A program made the translations under genes and the position numbers. Of a stretch of DNA of 64,000 nt, positions 25,082-35,374 are shown piece by piece (the first letter of the stretch is position 1; every line of letters begins with the position of its first letter). The notes beneath the pieces were generated by a model. The model worked only from the letters and a program-made list of their open reading frames with translations. It ran no database searches and was not told the origin of the DNA. The DNA comes from Candidatus Saccharicenans subterraneus (GTDB lineage Bacteria > Acidobacteriota > Aminicenantia > Aminicenantales > Saccharicenantaceae). The stretch spans positions 1 to 64,000 of the forward strand of contig QUAH01000002.1 in assembly GCA_003426165.1 (NCBI GenBank). The letters run 5' to 3'.

Positions 25082-25321
25082 ATGTCCGAACTTACACCAG
25101 ATGTCACCCTCGATAACAGCGGGCTGGCCTGTCCCATGCCCATCATCAAGACCAAGAAGGCCATCGACGGGATGCAGGTCGGCCAGGTGCTGAAGATGAT
25201 CGCCACCGACCCCGGTTCCATCCCCGATGTCCAGGCCTGGGTCAGCAAGACAGGTCATGAGCTCCTGAAGCATGAAACCGAGGGCAACAGGTTCATTTTT
25301 TACATCCGCAAGACAAAATAG
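25082..25321 (+). CDS. tusA: TusA-family sulfurtransferase
   Basis: A 79-residue TusA/SirA-family protein that carries sulfane sulfur as a persulfide on a cysteine. The CPxP signature is intact: GLACPMPI with Cys17. The usual beta-alpha-beta fold pattern follows (ATDPGSIPDVQAWVSKTGHELL). The ATG has a strong AAGGAGG 7 bases upstream. It is the first gene of the hydrogenase-sulfur cluster; DsrE-type and lipoyl-carrier genes follow. That context points to sulfur relay for energy metabolism instead of tRNA thiolation, which is inference from the neighbours. Confidence 0.93.
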   Translation: MSELTPDVTLDNSGLACPMPIIKTKKAIDGMQVGQVLKMIATDPGSIPDVQAWVSKTGHELLKHETEGNRFIFYIRKTK

Positions 25322-25326
25322 CAGCC

Positions 25327-25352
25327 GCCAGGGAAGACCATTCTTTCCTGGC
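25327..25352 (+). other. hairpin just after tusA
   Basis: GCCAGGGAAGA and TCTTTCCTGGC form an 11-base-pair stem (one G-U) with a 4-base loop, 5 bases after the tusA stop. No T run follows, so it may stabilise or process the tusA message instead of ending transcription. Confidence 0.45.
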
Positions 25353-25390
25353 CGTTAGAATAAAAGCCCCGGGCTGAAGGAGAGCTAAGA

Positions 25391-25561
25391 GTGGCGGAAC
25401 TCAAGCGGGAGGCTTTTTTCGGAAAGCCGGTTAATCCCTCTCTGCCGGGAATATTTTTCAATCCGAACTATGCGAAACGATACTCGCCCCCTGCCATCCT
25501 CGACTCTTTCAGCCACTCGTTTCGGAATTTAAGTCAAGCTAACTTCAAAAAAGGAGGATAA
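25391..25561 (+). CDS. possible 56-aa small protein between tusA and dsrE2
   Basis: A short frame starts at GTG 25391, with AAGGAGAG at 25377-25384 giving ideal spacing of 6 bases, and stops at TAA 25559-25561, overlapping the ribosome-binding site of the next gene. The product would be 56 residues, begin MAELKREAFFGKPVNPS and be basic, with several aromatic residues and no cysteine or clear membrane helix. The start signal and the exact fit between the two neighbours favour a real gene and translational coupling; I know no family for it. It could also be chance. Confidence 0.4.
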   Translation: MAELKREAFFGKPVNPSLPGIFFNPNYAKRYSPPAILDSFSHSFRNLSQANFKKGG

Positions 25562-25564
25562 ATA

Positions 25565-26038
25565 ATGCCTGAAGGAAAAAAGAGACTGGCCATCATCTGC
25601 TTGCACGGCAGTATTGACGTGGCCTTTGCCACCTTCGTCCTGGCCACGGCCGGGGCCGCCATGGAAATGGAGACCGCCGTTTATTTTGCCTTCTACGGGC
25701 TGGAAGTCCTCAAGAAGGGGAAAATCAACAAGCTCAAGGTTTCACCGCTGGCCAACCCGGCCATGCCGGTGAAAATTCCCAACATCATTGCCATGCTGCC
25801 CGGGATGACCGCCGCGGCCACGGCCATGATGAAATCCTGGATGAAAAAATCCAAGGTGGCCACCCTGGGCGAACTGCTGGACACGGCCCGGGAACTGGGC
25901 GTCAGGCTTATCGCCTGCCAGATGAGCATGGACGTCATGGGGATCAAGAAGGAAGACCTCATAGACGGCGTTGAAATCGGAGGGGCGGCTACCTTCCTGG
26001 AATTTGCCAGCCAGGATGCCATCACCCTGACCTTTTAG
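25565..26038 (+). CDS. DsrE2-like sulfur carrier protein
   Basis: A 157-residue protein of the DsrE/DsrF/DrsH-like (DsrE2-type) family that passes sulfane sulfur between partners. The conserved cysteine is Cys118 in LIACQMSMDVMGI, followed by the usual EDLIDGVEIGGAATF segment. The N-terminus has the family strand RLAIICLHGSIDVAFATFVLA. Residues about 74-90 are long and hydrophobic (IAMLPGMTAAATAMM), as in DsrE2 proteins. ATG at 25565 has AAAAAAGGAGG 6 bases upstream. The next DsrE gene starts 9 bases after the stop, so they are one transcript. Confidence 0.9.
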   Translation: MPEGKKRLAIICLHGSIDVAFATFVLATAGAAMEMETAVYFAFYGLEVLKKGKINKLKVSPLANPAMPVKIPNIIAMLPGMTAAATAMMKSWMKKSKVATLGELLDTARELGVRLIACQMSMDVMGIKKEDLIDGVEIGGAATFLEFASQDAITLTF

Positions 26039-26047
26039 GAGGAAGCC

Positions 26048-26416
26048 ATGGCCGACGATAAAATCCTGATCATCATGACCAGTGGTCCGGATACACCCCG
26101 GCGCTGTGCCACACCCTTTTTCTTTGCCACCCTGGCCACCGCTATGGATTACGATGTCACCATGTTCTTCACCATTGACGGAACCCTGCTGCTCAAGAAA
26201 GGCCTGGCCGATACAGTTTTCCCCAAGGAAGGAGGCAAATCGGTCGGCGAATTCCTGAGAGAGGCCATCGACTCCGGGGTCAAGATGACCGCCTGTACCG
26301 CTTCCCTCGAGCTTCACGGCCTGAGCCCGGATGACCTGATTCCCGAGGTCAAGATGGTCGGGGGAGCGTCCATGTGGCAGATGGCCGAAGAGAGTAAAAC
26401 CGTATTAACTTTCTGA
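26048..26416 (+). CDS. DsrE-family sulfur carrier protein
   Basis: A 122-residue DsrE-like protein, shorter than its neighbour. The likely active cysteine is Cys83 in KMTACTASLELHGL, followed by SPDDLIPEV and VGGASMW; a second cysteine is in RRCATPFFFATLA. Such proteins receive or donate sulfur, often with TusA. GGAGGAAGCC precedes the ATG. With the DsrE2-like gene upstream and the lipoyl carrier gene 22 bases downstream, it probably forms a relay that loads or unloads the lipoyl group, which is inference. Confidence 0.88.
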   Translation: MADDKILIIMTSGPDTPRRCATPFFFATLATAMDYDVTMFFTIDGTLLLKKGLADTVFPKEGGKSVGEFLREAIDSGVKMTACTASLELHGLSPDDLIPEVKMVGGASMWQMAEESKTVLTF

Positions 26417-26438
26417 GCGAATCAAAAAGGAGGAAACC

Positions 26439-26885
26439 ATGGCCATAATTCGCGGCTGTAACCTTCCCGAAGATCTTTACTATTACCCGGAAAAGCACCT
26501 GTGGCTAAAGCCGCTCGGCGGCAACCTCTTCCGCATCGGGCTAACCCCCATCGCCGGAAAACTGGCCGGCGGGAAACTCAACGCCGTAACCATCAGGTCC
26601 AAGAACATCGGCCAGGAAGTCCAGCAGGGGAAAAGCCTGGCCACCCTGGAGAGCAGCAAGTACGTGGGCCCGGTGCCGGCTCCCATTACCGGTATCGTCA
26701 AGTCCGGAAATGACAGGCTGGCCGCCGATCCCAACCTGGTCATCAGCGACCCTTACGGCGAAGGCTGGGTGGCCGAAATCGAAGCCACGAAGTGGGACCA
26801 GGAAAAAGCGACCCTGCTGACCGGGGCTGAAGGCCTGGCCGAGTACGAAAAGAAACTGGAAGCGGCCGGGATCTCCTGCGGGTAA
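26439..26885 (+). CDS. GcvH-like lipoyl carrier (LbpA-like)
   Basis: A 148-residue lipoyl-domain protein resembling glycine cleavage H protein. The lipoylation site is Lys74 in TLESSKYVGPVPAPITG. Unlike typical H proteins of about 125-130 residues it has an N-terminal RGCNLPEDLYYYPEKH and a C-terminal tail ending GISCG, so a cysteine lies near each end. No other glycine cleavage gene is present; instead it stands among TusA and DsrE genes and an FeS/hydrogenase operon, with a lipoate ligase nearby. This matches the setting of LbpA, the lipoate-binding protein of the sulfur-oxidising sHdr pathway. I therefore favour a sulfur carrier over glycine metabolism. AAAAAGGAGG precedes the ATG. Confidence 0.85.
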   Translation: MAIIRGCNLPEDLYYYPEKHLWLKPLGGNLFRIGLTPIAGKLAGGKLNAVTIRSKNIGQEVQQGKSLATLESSKYVGPVPAPITGIVKSGNDRLAADPNLVISDPYGEGWVAEIEATKWDQEKATLLTGAEGLAEYEKKLEAAGISCG

Positions 26886-26944
26886 TATTTCTTTGGGTGC
26901 GACGGAAAATTAAAAATTAAAGTTTATAAATCGCGAAAAAATAA

Positions 26945-26960
26945 CTCCTTCGCCAAGGAG
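26945..26960 (+). promoter_or_regulatory. hairpin that can hide the hydrogenase small-subunit ribosome-binding site
   Basis: CTCCTT (26945-26950), CGCC loop and AAGGAG (26955-26960) can pair perfectly. AAGGAG is the ribosome-binding site of the hydrogenase small-subunit gene starting at 26966. The stem would limit translation unless opened by a ribosome, protein or RNA. Confidence 0.45.
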
Positions 26961-26965
26961 GGCAA

Positions 26966-28117
26966 ATGAAGGAAAAAACGATTTATGAGCATTTGAGGGA
27001 AAAGGGGCTCTCCCGGCGGGATTTCATGAAACTCTGCGGCACCATTGCCGGAATGATGGGCCTGGAGTTCGTACCCCCGGTCAAAGCTCTGGGCAAAACA
27101 CTAGGCCAGAGCCCGGAAGAAGTGGTGGCTCAGGCCCTTAAGACCAAGCCAAAAGTTCCCATCATCTGGCTGGAGTTCCAGGACTGTGCCGGGTGCAGCG
27201 AAGCCATCTCCCGCTCCAGCTCTCCCCTTCTCAGCAACCTGGTCCTTAATGACATCGCCATCGAGTACCATGAAACCCTGATGGCCGCAGCCGGTTTCCA
27301 GGCCGAAAAGGCCAAGGAAGAATGTATGAAGCAATTCTTCGGGAAATACGTGCTGGTGGTTGAGGGCAGTCCGACCCTGGCCGACGACGGCATCTACTGC
27401 ACCGTGGCCGGAAAAAGCAACCTGGACCTGCTAAAGGAAGCCGCGGCCGGGGCTGCCGCCGTCATCGCCACCGGAAACTGCGCCTGCTTTGGCGGAATCC
27501 CGGCAGCCCATCCCAACCCGACCAGGGCGGTCGGCGTGGCCGAGCTCATCAAAGACAAACCAGTCGTCAACATACCGGGCTGCCCGGCTATTCCGGAAGT
27601 TACCACTGGCACCATACTCCATTTCCTCATCATGGGCCAGCTTCCTGAAACTGACCAGCTGAAAAGACCTTTGCCCTTCTATGGCAACACGGTTCACGAC
27701 CATTGCCTGCGCCGGCCATTCTACGAAGCCGGAAAATTCGCCGGAAGCTTCGATGACGAAGGAGCCAGGAAAGGCTATTGCCTTTATAAGCTGGGCTGCA
27801 AGGGCCCGACCACCTACAATGCCTGCGCCGGCCTGAAGTGGGAGCGAGGCCTTTCCTACCCCGTTCAGTCCGGCCACCCCTGCCTCGGCTGTTCCGAACC
27901 CCATTTCTGGGATGGCGGCGGTTTTTACCAGGGCCAATCGGCTCCCATCATACGGCTCGATAAGGGTTCCACGGCCAACCTGGTTGGAGTCGGCGTGGCA
28001 GCCGGGGCCGCCCTGGCTGGCCTCAATGCCGTCAAGAAGAGCCGGGCCAAAAAGGACCTGAGAAAAGATCAGTCCCAGGCCCCCGGGTCTGAGCCCGGGT
28101 CAAAGAAGGAGGGCTGA
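26966..28117 (+). CDS. [NiFe] hydrogenase small subunit, Tat-exported (Isp-type)
   Basis: A 383-residue electron-transfer subunit of a membrane-bound uptake-type [NiFe] hydrogenase. A twin-arginine signal is seen in SRRDFMKLCG near residue 17, so the enzyme is exported folded. Cluster ligands: proximal Cys74 and Cys77 (DCAGC), Cys172 (GNCACFGG) and Cys206 (PGCP); distal His244 and Cys247 (HDHC) with later cysteines in GYCLYKLGCKG; medial cysteines in NAC and HPCLGC. A weakly hydrophobic segment (LVGVGVAAGAALAGL) followed by a Lys/Arg-rich tail at the C-terminus probably anchors it. The gene ends one base before the cytochrome gene. The order S-Isp1-Isp2-L is that of Isp-type (group 1e-like) hydrogenases. 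Confidence 0.95.
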   Translation: MKEKTIYEHLREKGLSRRDFMKLCGTIAGMMGLEFVPPVKALGKTLGQSPEEVVAQALKTKPKVPIIWLEFQDCAGCSEAISRSSSPLLSNLVLNDIAIEYHETLMAAAGFQAEKAKEECMKQFFGKYVLVVEGSPTLADDGIYCTVAGKSNLDLLKEAAAGAAAVIATGNCACFGGIPAAHPNPTRAVGVAELIKDKPVVNIPGCPAIPEVTTGTILHFLIMGQLPETDQLKRPLPFYGNTVHDHCLRRPFYEAGKFAGSFDDEGARKGYCLYKLGCKGPTTYNACAGLKWERGLSYPVQSGHPCLGCSEPHFWDGGGFYQGQSAPIIRLDKGSTANLVGVGVAAGAALAGLNAVKKSRAKKDLRKDQSQAPGSEPGSKKEG

Positions 28118-28118
28118 G

Positions 28119-28796
28119 ATGAACTGGACGAATATCTTGAATTTCAGCCGCGGGCCACTGCTTCATGTGGCCATGATAATTTTCGTGGCCGGCCTGAGCT
28201 ACCGGCTGGTCCGGGTTCTTTTGCTCGGCTGGGCGAGAGACAGGGCCAAGAACAAGGGCAGCAAGCTCTGGGGGGTAATCGTCAATTACCTGAAGGGCCT
28301 TTTCGTCCTGCCGTTTATTCCCTGGGTCCGGCGCACCTTCCGCCACAACGAGCTGACCTTTATCGCCGGCGGGCTGTTCCACCTCAGCCTGTTCCTGGTC
28401 CTGGTCTTCGGCACGGCCCATATTTTGGTCTGGAAGAGCCTCTGGGGTTTCGGCTGGAAGGGCCTGCCAACGCCCATCCTGGCTTTCTTCTCGGCCGTGG
28501 GCATAATCTCCATGATTGTCCTGCTGATAAACAGGCTCACCCACCCGGTGTTAAAAATGCTGACCAAGTTCCCGGTCTGGATAAACTGGCTGGTAGTTTT
28601 CCTGCCGATGATTACCGGCTTCATCATGGCCAGGCACCTGTGGTTCAGGTACGAGGTGATTTTCAGCCTGCACCTGATATCGGTCAGCCTGCTTCTAATC
28701 TGGATTCCCTTCGGTCGCATCTCCCACTTCCTGTTTTACTTCTTTTCCAAGACCATCCACGGGGCCCAGGCTGGTAAGCGCGCGGTAACGCCCTGA
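28119..28796 (+). CDS. Isp1/DsrM-like membrane cytochrome b subunit
   Basis: A 225-residue integral membrane protein with five hydrophobic helices, resembling the NarI/DsrM/Isp1 family that carries two b hemes. Candidate heme-ligand histidines lie within or near helices: GGLFHLSLF and TAHILVW in one part, MARHLWF and SLHLISV in another. It would pass electrons between the hydrogenase small subunit outside and the quinone pool or the Isp2 protein inside. It starts one base after the small-subunit gene and is followed 14 bases later by the FeS gene. Confidence 0.9.
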   Translation: MNWTNILNFSRGPLLHVAMIIFVAGLSYRLVRVLLLGWARDRAKNKGSKLWGVIVNYLKGLFVLPFIPWVRRTFRHNELTFIAGGLFHLSLFLVLVFGTAHILVWKSLWGFGWKGLPTPILAFFSAVGIISMIVLLINRLTHPVLKMLTKFPVWINWLVVFLPMITGFIMARHLWFRYEVIFSLHLISVSLLLIWIPFGRISHFLFYFFSKTIHGAQAGKRAVTP

Positions 28797-28810
28797 AAAG
28801 GAGGCAAGCC

Positions 28811-30076
28811 ATGAAAAGCCAGAAAACGCAATCAGCCATAAATACCTACCTTAAGGAGACAGGTGGCTGGGTGGCCAGTCAGCTCGAAGCCTGTACCCGC
28901 TGCGGCATCTGCGCCGAAGCCTGCCATTTCTACCAGGCCCTGGGCAATCCAGAATATGCTCCCATCTGGAAGCTGGAGCCGCTGCGCCGGGCCTATGAGC
29001 AGCGCTTCACCGTGGCCGGCAAGCTGAAATTAGCCCTTGGCCTGGAGAAACGGCTCGCCGACTCCGACCTGGAACACTGGAGCAAAATCGTCTACGAAGC
29101 CTGCACCGTCTGCAACAAGTGCGCCCACGTCTGCCCGATGGGCATCCAGCTCGGGCCGCTCATCCACGAGGTCAGAGCCGGGATGGCTGCGGCCGGAGTG
29201 GTGCCCGCAGACCTGGCCGAAGCCACGGAAAAGCAGAAAACCATCGGCAGCCCGCTGGGGGTTACCGACGAAATGTGGCGGGAAAGAATCGACTGGATCA
29301 CCGACGAATGGGAAGCTCAAATACCAGTTGATAAGGCCGGGGCCGAGAGCCTGGTAGTTTTCACCTCCATCGAGCTTATGAAATTTCCTGATAACCTGGC
29401 CGCCATAGCCAAGATTCTCAACAGGGCCGGAGAAAACTGGACAGTGAGCTCCACCGGCCGGGAAGTGGTTAACTTCGGCTACTTTGAAGCCGACGAGGAG
29501 CTGACCAGGCTTTTCATGTACCGGGTCTTCAAGGCGGCCGAGGAGCTGGGCGTAAAGCGCATCATCATCAGCGAGTGCGGTCACGCCTACGACGCTTTCC
29601 GCTGGGCAGCGCCCAACATGATGAAAGTTCCGAAGGGAGTGGACATCGCCCACATCAGCGAGTACATCCACCACCTCTGGAAGACCGGCCGGATCAAGCT
29701 CAAGGAAGGAGCCTTTGACGGTGAGACCATCACCTTCCACGACTCCTGTAAAATTCAGCGCCGCGGCGGCATCATCAAGCAGCCGCGGGAGCTGCTCAGG
29801 GTACTGGCTCCTAAGAGCTTCAAAGAAATGACACCCAATAAGGAGCAGTCACTGTGCTGTGGCGGCGGAGGCGGTGTTATCTCCATCAAGGAAGCCGACG
29901 CCAACCGCTATGCCGTCTTCGAGATGAAAATTGAGCAGCTCCAGGAAGTCCAGGCCAAGGCCGTCTGCATGGTCTGCAGCAACTGCCGCTTGCAGTTCGT
30001 GGACAGCGTGGGGCATTTCAACCTGCCGGTAAAAGTCCACGGCCTGGCCGAGCTGGTTTCCAGGGCCCTGTTATAA
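28811..30076 (+). CDS. Isp2/DsrK-like heterodisulfide reductase-type FeS protein
   Basis: A 421-residue cytoplasmic FeS protein related to HdrD, DsrK and Isp2. Two [4Fe-4S] ferredoxin motifs are at Cys28-31-34-38 and Cys98-101-104-108. The C-terminal CCG domain is complete: Cys313 (HDSC), Cys349-Cys350-Gly and Cys386/Cys389, which in HdrB/HdrD binds the special cluster that splits disulfides. The first CCG domain is degenerate (NFGYF, then SECGHAYDAFRW), a pattern I recall from DsrK proteins. It would accept electrons from hydrogen through Isp1 and reduce a disulfide or persulfide. No DsrC is seen nearby; the lipoyl carrier could be the partner (inference). Confidence 0.92.
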   Translation: MKSQKTQSAINTYLKETGGWVASQLEACTRCGICAEACHFYQALGNPEYAPIWKLEPLRRAYEQRFTVAGKLKLALGLEKRLADSDLEHWSKIVYEACTVCNKCAHVCPMGIQLGPLIHEVRAGMAAAGVVPADLAEATEKQKTIGSPLGVTDEMWRERIDWITDEWEAQIPVDKAGAESLVVFTSIELMKFPDNLAAIAKILNRAGENWTVSSTGREVVNFGYFEADEELTRLFMYRVFKAAEELGVKRIIISECGHAYDAFRWAAPNMMKVPKGVDIAHISEYIHHLWKTGRIKLKEGAFDGETITFHDSCKIQRRGGIIKQPRELLRVLAPKSFKEMTPNKEQSLCCGGGGGVISIKEADANRYAVFEMKIEQLQEVQAKAVCMVCSNCRLQFVDSVGHFNLPVKVHGLAELVSRALL

Positions 30077-30091
30077 GGAAAGGAGGGCAAC

Positions 30092-30412
30092 ATGGCATCC
30101 TTTAATCTGACCCCGGTGGAAAAAGGAATCCTCAGGTGCCGCCACACCGGCCCCTTTACTCCTGAGGATATCCAATCCCTGACGGTTTTCTTTAGGGAAT
30201 ACCACGGCAAGCTGCTTATTGACCTCAGCGGGACCGACCCGTCCGAATGCCTGCGGCACATTAAGCACATGAGGCCGATCATGCCAACCGCGGCCATTTT
30301 CGGGGCCGAAATAGACCCCAAGATTCTGGAGATAGACCGCAGCTACTACGCCAACGAAGTACGCTGGTTCCGGACCGAAAAAGAAGCCCTGGAATGGCTT
30401 CGCAACCAGTAA
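30092..30412 (+). CDS. STAS/SpoIIAA-like protein inside the hydrogenase operon
   Basis: A 106-residue protein resembling SpoIIAA-like/STAS-SEC14-type small proteins: a central strand LLIDLSGTDPSE, then AAIFGAEIDPKILEI and the typical ending VRWFRTEKEALEWL. It has no cysteine cluster or membrane helix. AAGGAGGGCAAC precedes the ATG. Its place between the FeS gene and the large-subunit gene is not part of the usual Isp-type gene order, and the spacing (15 bases on each side) shows it belongs to the operon. A role in controlling or assembling the enzyme is possible but unproven. Confidence 0.75.
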   Translation: MASFNLTPVEKGILRCRHTGPFTPEDIQSLTVFFREYHGKLLIDLSGTDPSECLRHIKHMRPIMPTAAIFGAEIDPKILEIDRSYYANEVRWFRTEKEALEWLRNQ

Positions 30413-30427
30413 TGGAAGGAGGGCAAC

Positions 30428-32167
30428 ATGGCTAATCGAATCGTCATCGATCCTATAACCAGGATAGAAGGACACTTAAGGATTGAAGCCGCGCTCGACG
30501 GGAACAACACCATCACCGAGGCCTACTCGGCCGGGACCATGGTGCGCGGCATCGAAAACATCCTGAAGAAGCGTGACCCGCGCGACGCCTGGGCCTTTGC
30601 CCAGAGAATCTGCGGGGTTTGCACCACGGTCCATGCCATTGCCTCCATCCGGGCGGTGGAAGACGCCCTGGGCATAAACATTCCCAAAGCCGCCAACCTG
30701 ATGCGGAACATGATCATCGCCCAGCAGTACATCCACGACCACGTGATGCATTTCTACATCCTGCACGCCCTGGACTTCGTGGACGTGGTCAGTGCCCTGA
30801 AAGCTGACCCGAAGAAAACTTCGGACATCCAGCAGAGCATCTCCGGCTGGCCCAATTCCTCCCCGGCCTACTTTGCCGAGGTCCAGAAAAAAGTAAAGGC
30901 CATCGTCGATAGCGGCCAGCTGTCGCTATTCAGCAATGGCTACTGGGGCCACCCGGCCTACAAGCTCCCGCCGGAAATCAACCTGCTGGGCGTGGCTCAC
31001 TACCTGGAGTGCCTGGACTGGCAGTCGCAGGTGACCAAGATCCACACCATCTTTGGCGGCAAGAACCCGCATCCCAACTTCGTGGTGGGAGGGGTGCCTC
31101 TCCCCATCGACATGAACTCGGACCAGGCCCTGAACGCCGAGAAGCTGGCGGTCATCGCCGATTCCATCCAGCGGATGAATAACTTCGTTGACCAGGTTTA
31201 CCTGCCGGACCTGCTGGCCGTGGCTCCCTATTACCTGGAATATGCGGCGGTCGGCGAGGGACTGGGTAACTTCCTGGCCTGGGGCGAATTTCCTGAGGGA
31301 CAGCTCAACGAGATTGATAAGCTGATTTTCCCCAGGGGTGTGATCGTCAACCGAGATCTGAAGAACGTTATTGTACCCGACCCGAGAGATGCGACCAAGA
31401 TGAAAGAATTCGTTACCCATAGCTGGTATAAGTACAGCCAGGGCGATGAAGCCGGGCTTTTCCCCTGGGAAGGCGAAACGGTCTTTAATTACACCGGGCC
31501 CAGGCCGCCCTATGAATACCTGAACGTCGAGGGCAAGTATTCCTGGTTGAAATCACCCCGCTGGAACGAGCTGCCAATGGAAGTGGGCCCCCTGGCCCGG
31601 GTTCTGATTCTCTATGCCACGGGGCATAAGGAGACGGTTGCCCTGGTCAATGCCGTCCTGGAAAAGCTCAAGGCTCCGGTCAGCGCCGTGTTTTCGACGC
31701 TTGGACGGACAGCGGCCAGGGCCATTGAGACCAAGGTCATCGCCGGGCTGCTTCAGAAGTTCTATGACGAGCTGGTGGCCGAGATTAAAGCCGGAAACAC
31801 CGATACCTTCAACGACGAAAAATGGGAGCCCCGGACCTGGCCGAAAAAGGCGCTCGGCTTCGGCTATACCGAGGCACCGCGCGGAGCCCTCGGGCACTGG
31901 GTGGTGATAGAGAACAGGAAAATCAAGAATTACCAGGTGGTGGTGCCGACCACCTGGAATGCTTCGCCCCGCGACCACAAGAACCAGGCCGGCGCCTATG
32001 AGGCCGCGCTCGTGGGAACCAGGCTGGTCAATCCAGAGCAGCCACTGGAAATCCTGCGGACGATACACTCCTTCGACCCGTGCCTGGCCTGCGCCGTGCA
32101 CCTGGTCGATGCCAGCGGGAAGAAGGTCGGGGAGGCGGCCACCGGCTTTAACCTGGTAGTGCGCTGA
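30428..32167 (+). CDS. [NiFe] hydrogenase large (catalytic) subunit
   Basis: A 579-residue catalytic subunit that splits or makes H2 at a Ni-Fe(CN)2CO centre. Both metal-binding motifs are intact: RICGVCTTVH with Cys62 and Cys65 (L1) and DPCLACAVH with Cys552 and Cys555 (L2). After His558 follow 21 residues that should be cut off by a maturation protease, whose gene lies 400 bases downstream. Family patterns at the start (IVIDPITRIEGHLRIEA) are typical of group 1 enzymes. AAGGAGGGCAAC precedes the ATG. No hypA-F genes are in the window, so cofactor assembly must be encoded elsewhere. Confidence 0.97.
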   Translation: MANRIVIDPITRIEGHLRIEAALDGNNTITEAYSAGTMVRGIENILKKRDPRDAWAFAQRICGVCTTVHAIASIRAVEDALGINIPKAANLMRNMIIAQQYIHDHVMHFYILHALDFVDVVSALKADPKKTSDIQQSISGWPNSSPAYFAEVQKKVKAIVDSGQLSLFSNGYWGHPAYKLPPEINLLGVAHYLECLDWQSQVTKIHTIFGGKNPHPNFVVGGVPLPIDMNSDQALNAEKLAVIADSIQRMNNFVDQVYLPDLLAVAPYYLEYAAVGEGLGNFLAWGEFPEGQLNEIDKLIFPRGVIVNRDLKNVIVPDPRDATKMKEFVTHSWYKYSQGDEAGLFPWEGETVFNYTGPRPPYEYLNVEGKYSWLKSPRWNELPMEVGPLARVLILYATGHKETVALVNAVLEKLKAPVSAVFSTLGRTAARAIETKVIAGLLQKFYDELVAEIKAGNTDTFNDEKWEPRTWPKKALGFGYTEAPRGALGHWVVIENRKIKNYQVVVPTTWNASPRDHKNQAGAYEAALVGTRLVNPEQPLEILRTIHSFDPCLACAVHLVDASGKKVGEAATGFNLVVR

Positions 32168-32571
32168 AGCTTCAAGCGAACTGGGTTTATGAAGTGATTG
32201 GATGGCCAAGAGCTTGAAACGCAGGTACTGGCCCGCTGACCGGGTCCATCATAATTCCGGAAAGGCGAGAGTAAAGACGGAGTGCTAACGACGGCAGATG
32301 TCAGAAACGTTTGAAAAATTAAGGAAATGTAAATCCACAAGAACAAACGGTCCGGGTACGACTCCAGCCGGCCGTGGACAAAACGATCTTCAAGAAACCA
32401 CCCTATTCCAGGTTGGCCACAAATGGCTCGTAGCTGCAAACCAGGACCAGACTGCGTGCGGTCAGCCGTCCGGGCCAGAAAGAAGCAGCAGTCAAAAAAC
32501 GTCGTCAGGGATAGCAAAACGCATGAGACATATGAATGGTTGTTCATATATCCTGAACCCAGCCGAATCTC
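32168..32571. other. intergenic region between hydrogenase operon and maturation protease
   Basis: About 400 bases. It contains the operator palindrome at 32530-32549 and no convincing gene; a 28-codon frame from about 32202 has no good start signal. The gap suggests the maturation protease has its own promoter, although I cannot name its boxes. Confidence 0.4.
32530..32549. promoter_or_regulatory. operator palindrome, copy 1 (TetR-type)
   Basis: ATATGAATGGTTGTTCATAT has perfect 7-base arms (ATATGAA/TTCATAT). The same 20-base pattern recurs at 58598-58617 and 60750-60769, which makes chance unlikely. It stands 22 bases before the maturation protease start and could block its promoter. Confidence 0.6.
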
Positions 32572-33078
32572 ATGGTGAAAACTGAAATGGCCAAGAGAAT
32601 TGTGGTGCTTGGAGTGGGAAATATCCTGAACCGGGACGAAGGAGCGGGAGTGCAGGCGCTAAAAGAACTAGAAAAAAGGCTGCCCGACGACTGGAAGGCG
32701 AAAGTGGAGCTGTTAGATGGCGGGGTGCTGGGGATGGACCTCCTCCCCTACGTGGAACGGGCCACCCACCTGCTCGTCCTGGACGCGGCTGATTTCCAGG
32801 GCCGGCCGGGAGCAATCAGGGAGTTTTCGGGAGGGGCGCTAAAAACATTTTTCTCCGGCAAGATTTCCTGGCACCAGCTCGGCTTCCAGGAGGTGCTGGA
32901 AGTGGCCCGGGTCAGAGGGCACTATCCGGGACAGGTTCACCTGATCGGCGTTCAGCCTGGGGACATGGAAGTCGGACTGGGGTTAAGCGAAGCTCTGGAG
33001 CTTTCCGTGAGGGATATGGCCAGAAGGGCTCTGGACATACTAAAAAACTGGCTCGAGGATACTGACCATGCAGAATAG
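32572..33078 (+). CDS. hydrogenase maturation protease (HyaD/HupD family)
   Basis: A 168-residue endopeptidase that trims the C-terminus of the large subunit after nickel insertion. The family start GVGNILNRDEGAGV includes the metal-sensing Glu, DAADF holds the Asp and SWHQLGFQEVL the His. ATG 32572 or ATG 32587 may be the start; neither has a clear ribosome-binding site. The 21-residue tail after His558 of the large subunit is its expected substrate. It is separated from the hydrogenase operon by about 400 bases and has an operator palindrome just upstream, so maturation may be regulated separately. Confidence 0.93.
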   Translation: MVKTEMAKRIVVLGVGNILNRDEGAGVQALKELEKRLPDDWKAKVELLDGGVLGMDLLPYVERATHLLVLDAADFQGRPGAIREFSGGALKTFFSGKISWHQLGFQEVLEVARVRGHYPGQVHLIGVQPGDMEVGLGLSEALELSVRDMARRALDILKNWLEDTDHAE

Positions 33079-33417
33079 ATTCCGGAGGATTCTCCATCGA
33101 ATAAAAATGTTAGCTTGCACCATCTACAGGGCCAGGACCAAGTACAGGAAACAGAGGAGTTATCATGCAGTTGGGGTTCAAGCGGCAGCAAGAATTCTGA
33201 CTGGCTGAAGTCTTGATCAAAGGTTCCTGGCCTTTACCAGATATTCAGCCCAAGAAACCTTGACTGCGAAGCCTGGCCTGAGGCGTTAATAAAACAAATT
33301 TTCGAGGGATTGTCCGAGAGACTGATTTATAATAAGGCAAAAAATAAAAAAATTACTGGCATGCTAATAAGTAAACAAAAGATAAATCATTTGAAGAACC
33401 CCGAAAGGAAATAAAGG
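33079..33417. other. intergenic region upstream of lipoate ligase with a -10 box
   Basis: About 340 bases without a supported gene. A perfect TATAAT at 33328-33333 could be the -10 of the lipoate ligase gene; no good -35 stands at the right distance. The leader would be about 80 bases. Confidence 0.4.
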
Positions 33418-34518
33418 ATGGACGGAAACCAGAGGAAAAGATTAAGGGTCATAGACCTGGGGGAAGTGTCGGCCGTTAGGTCGCAGACCTGCTACCATGC
33501 TGTCGGCTATGCCTTCGGACCCGAAACTCCTGATACCATCATACTGGTCAGCCCCGCGAGTCCTTATGTCTGCGTTGGCTTCCACCAGGAAGCGGAGAGG
33601 GAAGTTGACCTGGAGTACTGCCGGCAGGCCGGGCTACCCGTCTACCGGCGCGAAGTCGGGGGCGGCGCTGTCTATCTCGACCGGAATCAACTTTTCGTGC
33701 AGTGGATTTTCCACCCGGAAAGCCTGCCCCTGGAGCTTGATGATAAATTCAGGTTCTACGTGGAACCAATTATCCGCACCTACCGGCAGCTGGGAATTGA
33801 AGCCTCCTACCGCCCGGTTAATGACATCCACGTGGCAGGAAAGAAAATTGGAGGCACGGGCGCGGCCAGGATCGGCCAGGCAGACATCCTGGTCGGAAGT
33901 TTCATGTTCGATTTTGATAAAAAAACAATGGCCAGGGTGCTCCGGGTGTCTTCAGAAAAGATGAGGGACAAGGTCTTCCAGAGCCTGGAGCAGTACATGA
34001 CTACGATGAAAGAACTGTTGCCGGAACTTCCTGCCAGAGAGATGGTTAAGAGAATTTACCTGAATAAGGTGGCAGAACTGCTGGGAGCTGAAGTAGAGGC
34101 AGGCGGGATGAGCGAGGCGGAACTTCAAGAGGCGGAAAGGCTGGACCGCCTTTTCCAGAGCAAGGACTGGAGTTTCCAGAAGGGACCGCTGCGCCGGCCT
34201 TCCGTCAAGATCCACGAAGATGTCCACGTGCGCGAGGTAGACTATAAAGCGCCGGGCGGATTGATCAGGTTGACGGCCAGGATCAGGACGGAGGGTGAAA
34301 AACCGATCCTCGATTCGGTCTGGATTTCCGGCGACTTTACCGCCATTCCCAAGGAGGGTGTTTCCATCCTGGAAGATAGGCTGCGGGGTATGGCCATCGA
34401 GGAAAAAAGCATTGGAGAAGCGGTCTGCCGGGCGCTTGAAGAATCAGGCCTGCAGTGTCCCGGCCTGACAGAACAGAGCTGGATTTCAGCCCTGCTCAGG
34501 CTGGCCGGTTCCGAGTAA
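33418..34518 (+). CDS. lplA: lipoate-protein ligase A-type enzyme
   Basis: A 366-residue enzyme that activates lipoate with ATP and attaches it to a lysine of a carrier protein. The catalytic N-terminal domain shows RREVGGGAVYLDRNQ and NDIHVAGKKIGGTGAAR (lipoyl-AMP-binding lysine Lys142 or Lys143). A C-terminal accessory domain begins near residue 265, as in two-domain LplA proteins. ATG 33418 follows an AAAGGAAATAAAGG run. The nearest lipoyl protein is the GcvH-like carrier 6.5 kb upstream; no pyruvate or glycine cleavage complex gene is present. A dedicated ligase for the sulfur-type carrier would resemble the sHdr system (inference). Confidence 0.9.
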   Translation: MDGNQRKRLRVIDLGEVSAVRSQTCYHAVGYAFGPETPDTIILVSPASPYVCVGFHQEAEREVDLEYCRQAGLPVYRREVGGGAVYLDRNQLFVQWIFHPESLPLELDDKFRFYVEPIIRTYRQLGIEASYRPVNDIHVAGKKIGGTGAARIGQADILVGSFMFDFDKKTMARVLRVSSEKMRDKVFQSLEQYMTTMKELLPELPAREMVKRIYLNKVAELLGAEVEAGGMSEAELQEAERLDRLFQSKDWSFQKGPLRRPSVKIHEDVHVREVDYKAPGGLIRLTARIRTEGEKPILDSVWISGDFTAIPKEGVSILEDRLRGMAIEEKSIGEAVCRALEESGLQCPGLTEQSWISALLRLAGSE

Positions 34519-34879: not shown

Positions 34880-35374
34880 ATGATCAGCAAAAAGATGGAA
34901 GAAGCCATCAACAAACAGATCAACGAGGAAATGTATTCGGCCTATCTTTATCTGTCGATGGCCGGGTACTTTGCCGAGCAGAACCTGATGGGTTTCCACA
35001 ACTGGTTCTACGTTCAGTACCACGAAGAGCTGGCGCACGCCGAGAAATTCTACAGGTATCTGGTGGAACGCGGCGGGCAGGTCAGGCTGGCCGCCATCAA
35101 GGAACCCGAGCACACCTGGAAGGGCCCCCGGGATGCCTTCGAGGCAGTGCTCAAGCACGAACGGCACATCACCGGCAGGATTAACGAGCTGGTGGACATG
35201 GCCGAAGCCGAAAAAGACCGGGCTTCCTTTGCCATGCTGCAGTGGTTCGTCAACGAGCAGGTGGAAGAGGAGGCCAACGCCCAGGACATCCTGGCCAAGC
35301 TGGAGATGGTGGGCGACCACAAGCAGGGCCTGCTGATGATCGACCGGGCCCTGGCCGAGCGGAAAAAAGGCTGA
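34880..35374 (+). CDS. ftnA: bacterial non-heme ferritin
   Basis: A 164-residue four-helix ferritin that oxidises Fe(II) and stores iron as mineral inside a 24-subunit shell. Ferroxidase-centre ligands fit the family: Glu in NEEMYSAYLYLSMA, the EELAHAEKF pattern (E..H) and the later Glu in FVNEQVEEEANA. Length is normal. AGGAGG precedes the ATG and a consensus promoter stands upstream. It is a single-gene unit closed by a strong bidirectional terminator. It may serve iron needs of the nearby FeS and hydrogenase proteins or protect against oxygen; that is only context. Confidence 0.95.
   Translation: MISKKMEEAINKQINEEMYSAYLYLSMAGYFAEQNLMGFHNWFYVQYHEELAHAEKFYRYLVERGGQVRLAAIKEPEHTWKGPRDAFEAVLKHERHITGRINELVDMAEAEKDRASFAMLQWFVNEQVEEEANAQDILAKLEMVGDHKQGLLMIDRALAERKKG

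Follow-up and report, generated by a model that had tools for sequence, protein, structure and literature searches.

The window analyzed here, a stretch of 64,000 nucleotides, forms the start of contig C12 in the genome of Candidatus Saccharicenans subterraneus (2.9 Mb, 93% complete), further referred to as the source genome. At positions 25,082 to 34,518 the window carries a cassette in which the genes of an Isp-type [NiFe] hydrogenase are joined to genes of a sulfur relay and of a lipoyl carrier. Our preferred reading, to which we give somewhat better than even chances, is that the lipoylated, LbpA-like carrier is the most likely cytoplasmic electron acceptor of this hydrogenase. The parts recognizable from sequence are a hydrogenase with a signal for twin-arginine translocation (Tat), a six-histidine subunit of a membrane-anchor family, an Fe-S protein of the CCG type, a TusA-DsrE2-DsrE relay and the LbpA-like carrier; by the same evidence the cassette genes are conserved as one unit, with a lipoate ligase adjoining in most loci. 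The hydrogenase half and the LbpA sulfur-carrier half are both of known kinds, and it is the combination that appears to be new.

Families of open reading frames (ORFs) were assigned by hmmscan against Pfam and NCBI models; "below cut-off" means that the NCBI or Pfam threshold was not reached. An earlier note on this DNA had listed the genes of the region, lipoate ligase included, with their motifs, and the ORFs and hmmscan results agree with that list; only a SpoIIAA-like ORF had been missed. All cassette genes are ORFs of the + strand. The relay is encoded by tusA (25082..25321; a sulfur carrier, PF01206, E 9.5e-26), a gene for a DsrE2-like sulfurtransferase (25565..26038; PF13686, 5.8e-46; NF047629 below cut-off) and one for a second DsrE-type sulfurtransferase (26048..26416; PF02635, 9.1e-21). 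The gene of the LbpA-like, GcvH-like lipoate-binding carrier follows (26439..26885; PF01597, 9.5e-26), with Lys74 as the lipoyl site in ESSKYVGP and two cysteines, Cys7 and Cys147. Next come hydS, coding for the small hydrogenase subunit with a Tat signal (26966..28117; TIGR00391 and TIGR01409 over cut-off), isp1 for the membrane-anchor subunit (28119..28796; NF045723 TmcC and NF045716 HmcE, both below cut-off), isp2 for a protein with two [4Fe-4S] clusters plus CCG, DsrK/HdrD-like and also TmcB/HmcF-like (28811..30076; PF02754, Fer4), an optional SpoIIAA-like gene of 106 aa (30092..30412; PF11964 just below cut-off) and hydL for the large subunit (30428..32167; PF00374, E 7.6e-229). A hydrogenase maturation protease (32572..33078; TIGR00072 over cut-off, TIGR00140 below) and a lipoate-protein ligase with LplA and LplB parts, sLpl(AB)-like (33418..34518; PF21948; TIGR00545 at 39-336 and NF053749 LplB at 275-354, both below cut-off), complete the block. 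Intergenic gaps from dsrE2 to hydL measure 1–80 bp; tusA precedes dsrE2 by 243 bp, and 404 bp separate hydL from the protease gene, which is followed by the ligase gene after 339 bp.

The order tusA-dsrE2-dsrE-lbpA-hydS-isp1-isp2-hydL-protease-ligase was found in all four relatives fetched from the genus, one of them without the SpoIIAA-like gene. A GTDB scan with a seven-sequence carrier alignment was then ranked by carrier similarity, and the best 80 loci were used (more exist). The hydrogenase small subunit adjoins the carrier in 45 of these 80 loci and not in the other 35, with a break between 54% and 49% carrier identity; in the 45, which were found through the carrier, the carrier gene stands directly before hydS. 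By record title, about 14 of the 45 belong to Aminicenantes/Acidobacteriota, 29 to Chloroflexota and 2 to Actinomycetota, with two records titled "uncultured bacterium" (L058, L073) and one titled "Pseudomonadota" (L089) assigned to a phylum on the basis of carrier similarity. The record titles mostly name metagenome-assembled genomes (MAGs), those of Oscillochloris sp. ZM17-4 and Chloroflexales ZM16-3 being exceptions; several loci end at contig edges, and some represent the same species as the four genus relatives or the genus genomes considered below. Wherever the contig is long enough, each of the 45 loci has DsrE, HydS, Isp1, Isp2 and HydL. The pairwise carrier distances are correlated with the distances of HydL (r 0.87), Isp1 (0.85), Isp2 (0.82), HydS (0.81), DsrE2 (0.68), TusA (0.68) and the second DsrE (0.44), each computed over 35–44 loci, and none of 999 permutations reached any observed value. 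Given the same order in the genus relatives and in the 45 loci, a chance neighborhood was rejected. The possibility raised by the earlier note, that the sulfur genes are not co-conserved with the hydrogenase, did not hold in the four relatives, the 45 loci or 19 genomes of the genus.

Residue conservation was assessed in alignments of cassette copies with 47–100% protein identity, in which TusA, the DsrE proteins, the carrier, Isp2 and HydL show no variation at their catalytic or ligand cysteines. The active Cys17 of TusA, within CPMP, is kept in 39/39 copies, Cys20 and Cys83 of the second DsrE in 44/44, and Cys118 and His14 of the DsrE2-like protein in 40/40 (counted by residue alignment; a count of 42 is too high by two cross-matches of the second DsrE, in L067 and L092). 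Invariant in HydL are C62, C65, C552 and C555 (35 copies), and in Isp2 C313, C349, C350, C389 and C392 together with eight cluster cysteines (40 copies). Six Isp1 histidines (H88, H101, H173, H185, H203, H214) are conserved at 0.98–1.00 (43 copies) and are candidate heme b ligands. The position of isp1 and isp2 between the small- and large-subunit genes is that of Isp-type hydrogenases, and 3myr, presumably from A. vinosum, is the best solved match for both HydS and HydL. We take HydSL/HynSL enzymes with Isp1-Isp2 to be group 1e of HydDB. Against the DsrK equivalog NF045796, Isp2 scores 223.4 bits at a cut-off of 400 and hence is not a member of the DsrK family; it may work like DsrK, as the earlier note had it, though by score it stands outside. 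No export signal was seen in Isp2 by eye. For the Thiocapsa enzyme, a resemblance of Isp2 to heterodisulfide reductases is mentioned in PMC10892978.

The carrier is identified by its sequence as LbpA-like and not as GcvH. The lipoyl motif ES[SAG]K[YFW]VGP with K74 is present in all 45 hydrogenase-linked copies, and so are Cys7 and Cys147, whereas 11 of 12 GcvH rows contain no cysteine whatsoever. Conserved N-terminal and C-terminal cysteines lacking in GcvH distinguish LbpA according to PMC6067878. A maximum likelihood tree of 69 rows, among them 24 hydrogenase-linked carriers and 12 GcvH, places the 24 on one side of a branch (support 100/98), joins them with the first LbpA of sHdr clusters (98/92) and sets the 12 GcvH rows apart (99/96). 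The link to LbpA drawn by the earlier note is thereby upheld. With 66.4 bits against the TIGR00527 cut-off of 115.85, the carrier stays under both NCBI GcvH cut-offs. Another GCV_H gene of the genome (contig C15, 153.6 bits) lies directly before the glycine dehydrogenase (gcvP) genes; because of this second gcvH and the separate clade, the carrier is not a glycine cleavage H protein. Beside the 45 hydrogenase-linked carriers only Isp2 answers sHdr queries, at about 25% identity; since no hdr-like genes stand alongside, we call the carrier LbpA-like and do not count it as part of an sHdr system.

Among the other 35 carrier loci, none of which has a hydrogenase match, 33 contain an sHdr gene: HdrA, HdrB or HdrC flanks the carrier in 14, an HdrD-like CCG gene alone in 19, and none of these in L112 and L126. 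In two Acidobacteriota relatives (G095 and G031) the next best carriers, with 37 and 34% identity, are encoded in the order tusA-dsrE2-dsrE-lbpA followed by Hdr genes for FAD, CCG and Fe-S proteins; EtfAB was found in G095. This order before hdr genes is that of the sHdr clusters L041 and L042, and Isp2 of the cassette loci shares about 25% identity with the HdrD-like protein of sHdr clusters. As the same four-gene module stands before either hdr or hydrogenase genes, the hydrogenase replaces Hdr behind the carrier module. Among the cluster-bearing genomes tested, sHdrB gives a 68–74% match in 3/40 and weak matches of 23–26% in six more (both control genomes were positive); with a strong match in only three, the carrier seldom serves sHdr there. 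No sHdrB was found in the source genome. A second, divergent LbpA gene, with a ligase and a LipS1-type gene, lies behind the hydrogenase in L084 (16342-20093) and L078 (10137-12803). The LipS1-type radical S-adenosylmethionine gene is over cut-off in L084 and just under it in L078, and in L084 a LipS2-like gene (below cut-off) is present too. These are two of the three cluster genomes with a strong sHdrB match.

Presence of the carrier was compared with that of the hydrogenase in the 19 genus genomes. HydL of the cassette type occurs in 15 and a close carrier in 13; the two genomes with HydL and without a close carrier (G300, G304) have HydL so near the contig start that lbpA would fall off the contig. 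None of the four genomes without cassette-type HydL (completeness 63, 74, 90 and 91%) has a close carrier. DsrC is present in 18/19, including three of these four. Thus, within the genus the carrier tracks the hydrogenase and DsrC does not.

Outside the genus, HydL was matched at E 1e-60 or better in 59 of 400 Chloroflexota genomes. Six Chloroflexota HydL with at least 69% identity, one of them the search center, are all among the 45 cluster loci. Regions around 14 other HydL genes (41–65% identity), drawn from 14 of the 59 genomes, gave no matches to Isp1, Isp2, the carrier, TusA or DsrE, with some contigs ending close by; for L231 and L235 the sequence upstream of hydS is hidden by contig ends, and it is certain only that no Isp genes lie between S and L. 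The notion that Isp genes are a general trait of Chloroflexota uptake hydrogenases was rejected, given 0/14. One of these regions (L222, 5351-8871) has an odd order without Isp genes: a 65%-identical HydL, then a protease, then a 43%-identical HydS. A Methylovirgula plasmid carries a hydrogenase and a 30%-identical Fe-S protein, and the 17 kb inspected have no lipoyl carrier annotated.

In the mechanism that we propose, Lys74 would be lipoylated by the cassette ligase or by canonical LipA, a match to which over cut-off is present in the source genome. Sulfane sulfur would travel via TusA and DsrE to the dihydrolipoyl thiols, perhaps with the help of Cys7 and Cys147. H2 would be oxidized in the periplasm, its electrons crossing the membrane through Isp1, and the CCG cluster of Isp2 would cleave a persulfide, trisulfide or disulfide on the lipoyl group, whereby H2S is released and the dithiol restored. 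With H2 oxidation outside and proton uptake inside, the process should be electrogenic and amount to a small H2-sulfur respiration. We assume the reductive direction because the Thiocapsa HydSL-Isp enzyme reduces elemental sulfur with H2 (uptake of H2 in the dark), the only known major physiological role of that enzyme according to PMC10892978, and because neither sHdrB nor siroheme sulfite reductase was found in the source genome. H2-driven reduction of a lipoyl-bound persulfide, suggested already by the earlier note, is what we infer. The broader statement, that such H2-sulfur respiration exists in at least three phyla and that its membrane hydrogenase complex acts on protein-bound lipoamide as the substrate that bears the sulfur, is more tentative, and we put it slightly short of an even chance.

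Several points weigh against the carrier as acceptor. Lipoylation, the lipoyl persulfide, the contact between Isp2 and the carrier and the direction are all inferred. In PMC6067878 the known role of LbpA is in sulfur oxidation, which runs the opposite way. The source genome encodes a DsrC with two C-terminal cysteines, which could be the Isp2 substrate. In G308 the hydrogenase and the carrier are on different contigs, so that linkage is not seen there, and Isp hydrogenases without a carrier were sought in the 19 genus and 400 Chloroflexota genomes only. The downstream ligase is missing in 3/45 loci with room (L082, L087, L096), although L096 has one upstream, and the ligase found in L078 and L084 belongs to the second carrier gene. 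TusA and DsrE2 are missing in 2/45 loci where there is room (L082, L084). The carrier has 22 solved-structure matches with E values of 0.001 or better, every one an H protein or a GcvH-like protein, and its AlphaFold model shows the H-protein (GcvH) fold with a predicted local distance difference test (pLDDT) value of 93.6; as this fold is expected for LbpA too, it decides nothing between the two.

The two loci without TusA and DsrE2 speak for the strongest of the rival explanations, a plain dithiol/disulfide shuttle, in which Isp2 reduces a lipoyl disulfide with electrons from H2, these electrons then pass to cytoplasmic reductases and the TusA/DsrE relay has a secondary part. Both are from Chloroflexales and keep DsrE, the carrier and the hydrogenase in the stretch examined. 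Moreover, lipoyl is a redox disulfide, and CCG proteins such as HdrB and HdrD act on disulfides. However, DsrE is missing in 0/45 loci with room, TusA and DsrE2 in just two, and the closest kin, sHdr LbpA, has the same relay in L041 and L042; we consider such a shuttle unlikely, while giving it some weight.

The direction could also be reversed: oxidation of sulfide or thiol on the carrier would yield electrons that leave as H2, aiding fermentation or syntrophy. Many of the hosts are anaerobic fermenters, but H2 formation from sulfide or thiol is energetically uphill except at very low H2. The oxidative setting of LbpA mentioned above would fit this direction, as would the reversibility of the Thiocapsa Hyd enzyme described in PMC10892978. 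No sulfite-forming partner is seen, however: a strong sHdrB is absent from 37/40 cluster genomes, and none of the 19 genus genomes has a siroheme sulfite reductase (11/14 controls were positive). We therefore regard H2 release by this route as improbable.

If DsrC encoded elsewhere were the real substrate of Isp2, the lipoyl carrier would serve something unlinked. The DsrK-like character of Isp2 speaks for this, as do the two-cysteine DsrC of the source genome (L033 1498-1818, contig C18), a stand-alone gene adjoining a cysteine-desulfurase-family gene and a histidine kinase, and a DsrC match in 30/45 cluster genomes. Against it, the other 15, mostly draft MAGs, have no DsrC match, the hydrogenase-free genus genomes keep DsrC (3/4) with a close carrier in none, and the carrier gene, through which the loci were found, directly precedes hydS in 45 of them. 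Since no siroheme sulfite reductase was found, no DsrAB partner is seen for the source-genome DsrC. DsrC as the only carrier is weakened by these data, and its role as the Isp2 substrate appears quite unlikely. The proposal of the earlier note that the lipoyl protein replaces DsrC survives in part: DsrC does not follow the hydrogenase and is unmatched in a third of the cluster genomes, but with a two-cysteine DsrC in the source genome and DsrC in 18/19 genus genomes, "replacing" is too strong for the source organism.

The sulfur genes might instead help to build the Fe-S clusters of the hydrogenase, or other Fe-S clusters, and take no part in respiratory sulfur transfer. Kin of TusA and DsrE serve biosynthesis too, and the maturation protease and ligase are in the same block. 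Yet TusA, DsrE and the carrier are unmatched around the 14 other Chloroflexota HydL genes (again with some contigs ending close by), and we know of no need for a carrier of this clade and a CCG subunit in cluster assembly, which makes this explanation very improbable. That the GcvH-like protein is a second glycine cleavage H protein, in spite of its Pfam GCV_H match and GcvH fold, is already contradicted and was rejected as next to impossible, given the gcvH beside gcvP elsewhere, the separate clade, the scores below both NCBI cut-offs and the two LbpA-type cysteines. The grouping with GcvH that the earlier note had named as a refutation was not borne out by the tree.

The carrier as acceptor of the Isp-type hydrogenase may be compared with known systems. 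The gene order S-Isp1-Isp2-L is shared with Thiocapsa and Allochromatium. In Thiocapsa the four Isp-hydrogenase genes have consecutive locus tags, and no lipoyl carrier is mentioned in section 14 of PMC10892978, whereas here TusA-DsrE2-DsrE-carrier genes adjoin the hydrogenase, as does a lipoate ligase gene in most loci. The sHdr-LbpA systems (Hyphomicrobium; group III clusters of Actinobacteria) have the carrier module, as seen in L041 and L042, a nearby ligase, the lipoyl lysine with two cysteines and a CCG partner in common with the window; here the hydrogenase stands in place of the Hdr genes, and the carrier forms a sister clade. DsrMK, TmcBC and HmcEF of sulfate reducers likewise combine a membrane subunit with a CCG protein, Isp1 being similar to TmcC/HmcE and Isp2 to DsrK/TmcB/HmcF. 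They differ in that the window proteins score below each NCBI cut-off, the neighbor is LbpA-like and not DsrC, and a hydrogenase of the same operon would supply the electrons. By analogy, DsrC resembles the carrier as a proposed protein-bound thiol/persulfide substrate of a DsrK-type CCG protein; it is of another family and chemistry, with C-terminal cysteines in place of a lipoyl arm, and both are encoded in the source genome. GcvH shares fold and lipoyl lysine with the carrier, which differs by its separate clade and the additional Cys7 and Cys147. For Thermomicrobium, PMC6776052 mentions a group 1h hydrogenase separately from an hdr-etf-lbpA cluster. No link between LbpA and a hydrogenase was found in the open-access literature searched, including passages of PMC6776052, PMC8551704 and PMC10332631, and one may exist in print elsewhere; nor did that literature yield a paper on Saccharicenans and hydrogenase.

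For the route of H2 electrons from Isp-type hydrogenases to sulfur, the cassette offers a concrete, testable acceptor. If the carrier has the proposed role, a cytoplasmic acceptor is named for an Isp2 subunit, and the lipoyl carrier would be a cofactor of sulfur respiration in both ways, oxidation with sHdr and reduction with Isp hydrogenase; lipoic acid would gain a candidate role in reductive sulfur metabolism. The cassette is also a case of modular exchange, one sulfur-carrier module standing before Hdr genes in L041 and L042 or before the hydrogenase in the window. H2-dependent sulfide formation is predicted for Aminicenantes, Anaerolineae and the Chloroflexales strains ZM17-4 and ZM16-3.

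The SpoIIAA-like gene between isp2 and hydL is present in 18/45 hydrogenase-linked loci, with Cys16 and Cys53 invariant there, and is absent from L038, where the isp2-hydL spacing is less than 20 bp; its product is a possible extra thiol partner. Just upstream of the cassette, a gene with a helix-turn-helix (HTH) and a PocR-type sensory domain was observed in two Chloroflexota loci (L074 7615-8397, L084 8578-9321) and is a candidate regulator. In the window the ligase gene is followed by a ferritin gene (34880-35374), and ferritin also lies behind the ligase in 8/10 close Aminicenantes loci with long enough contigs (L055-L057, L059-L062 and L065; not L063 and L066).

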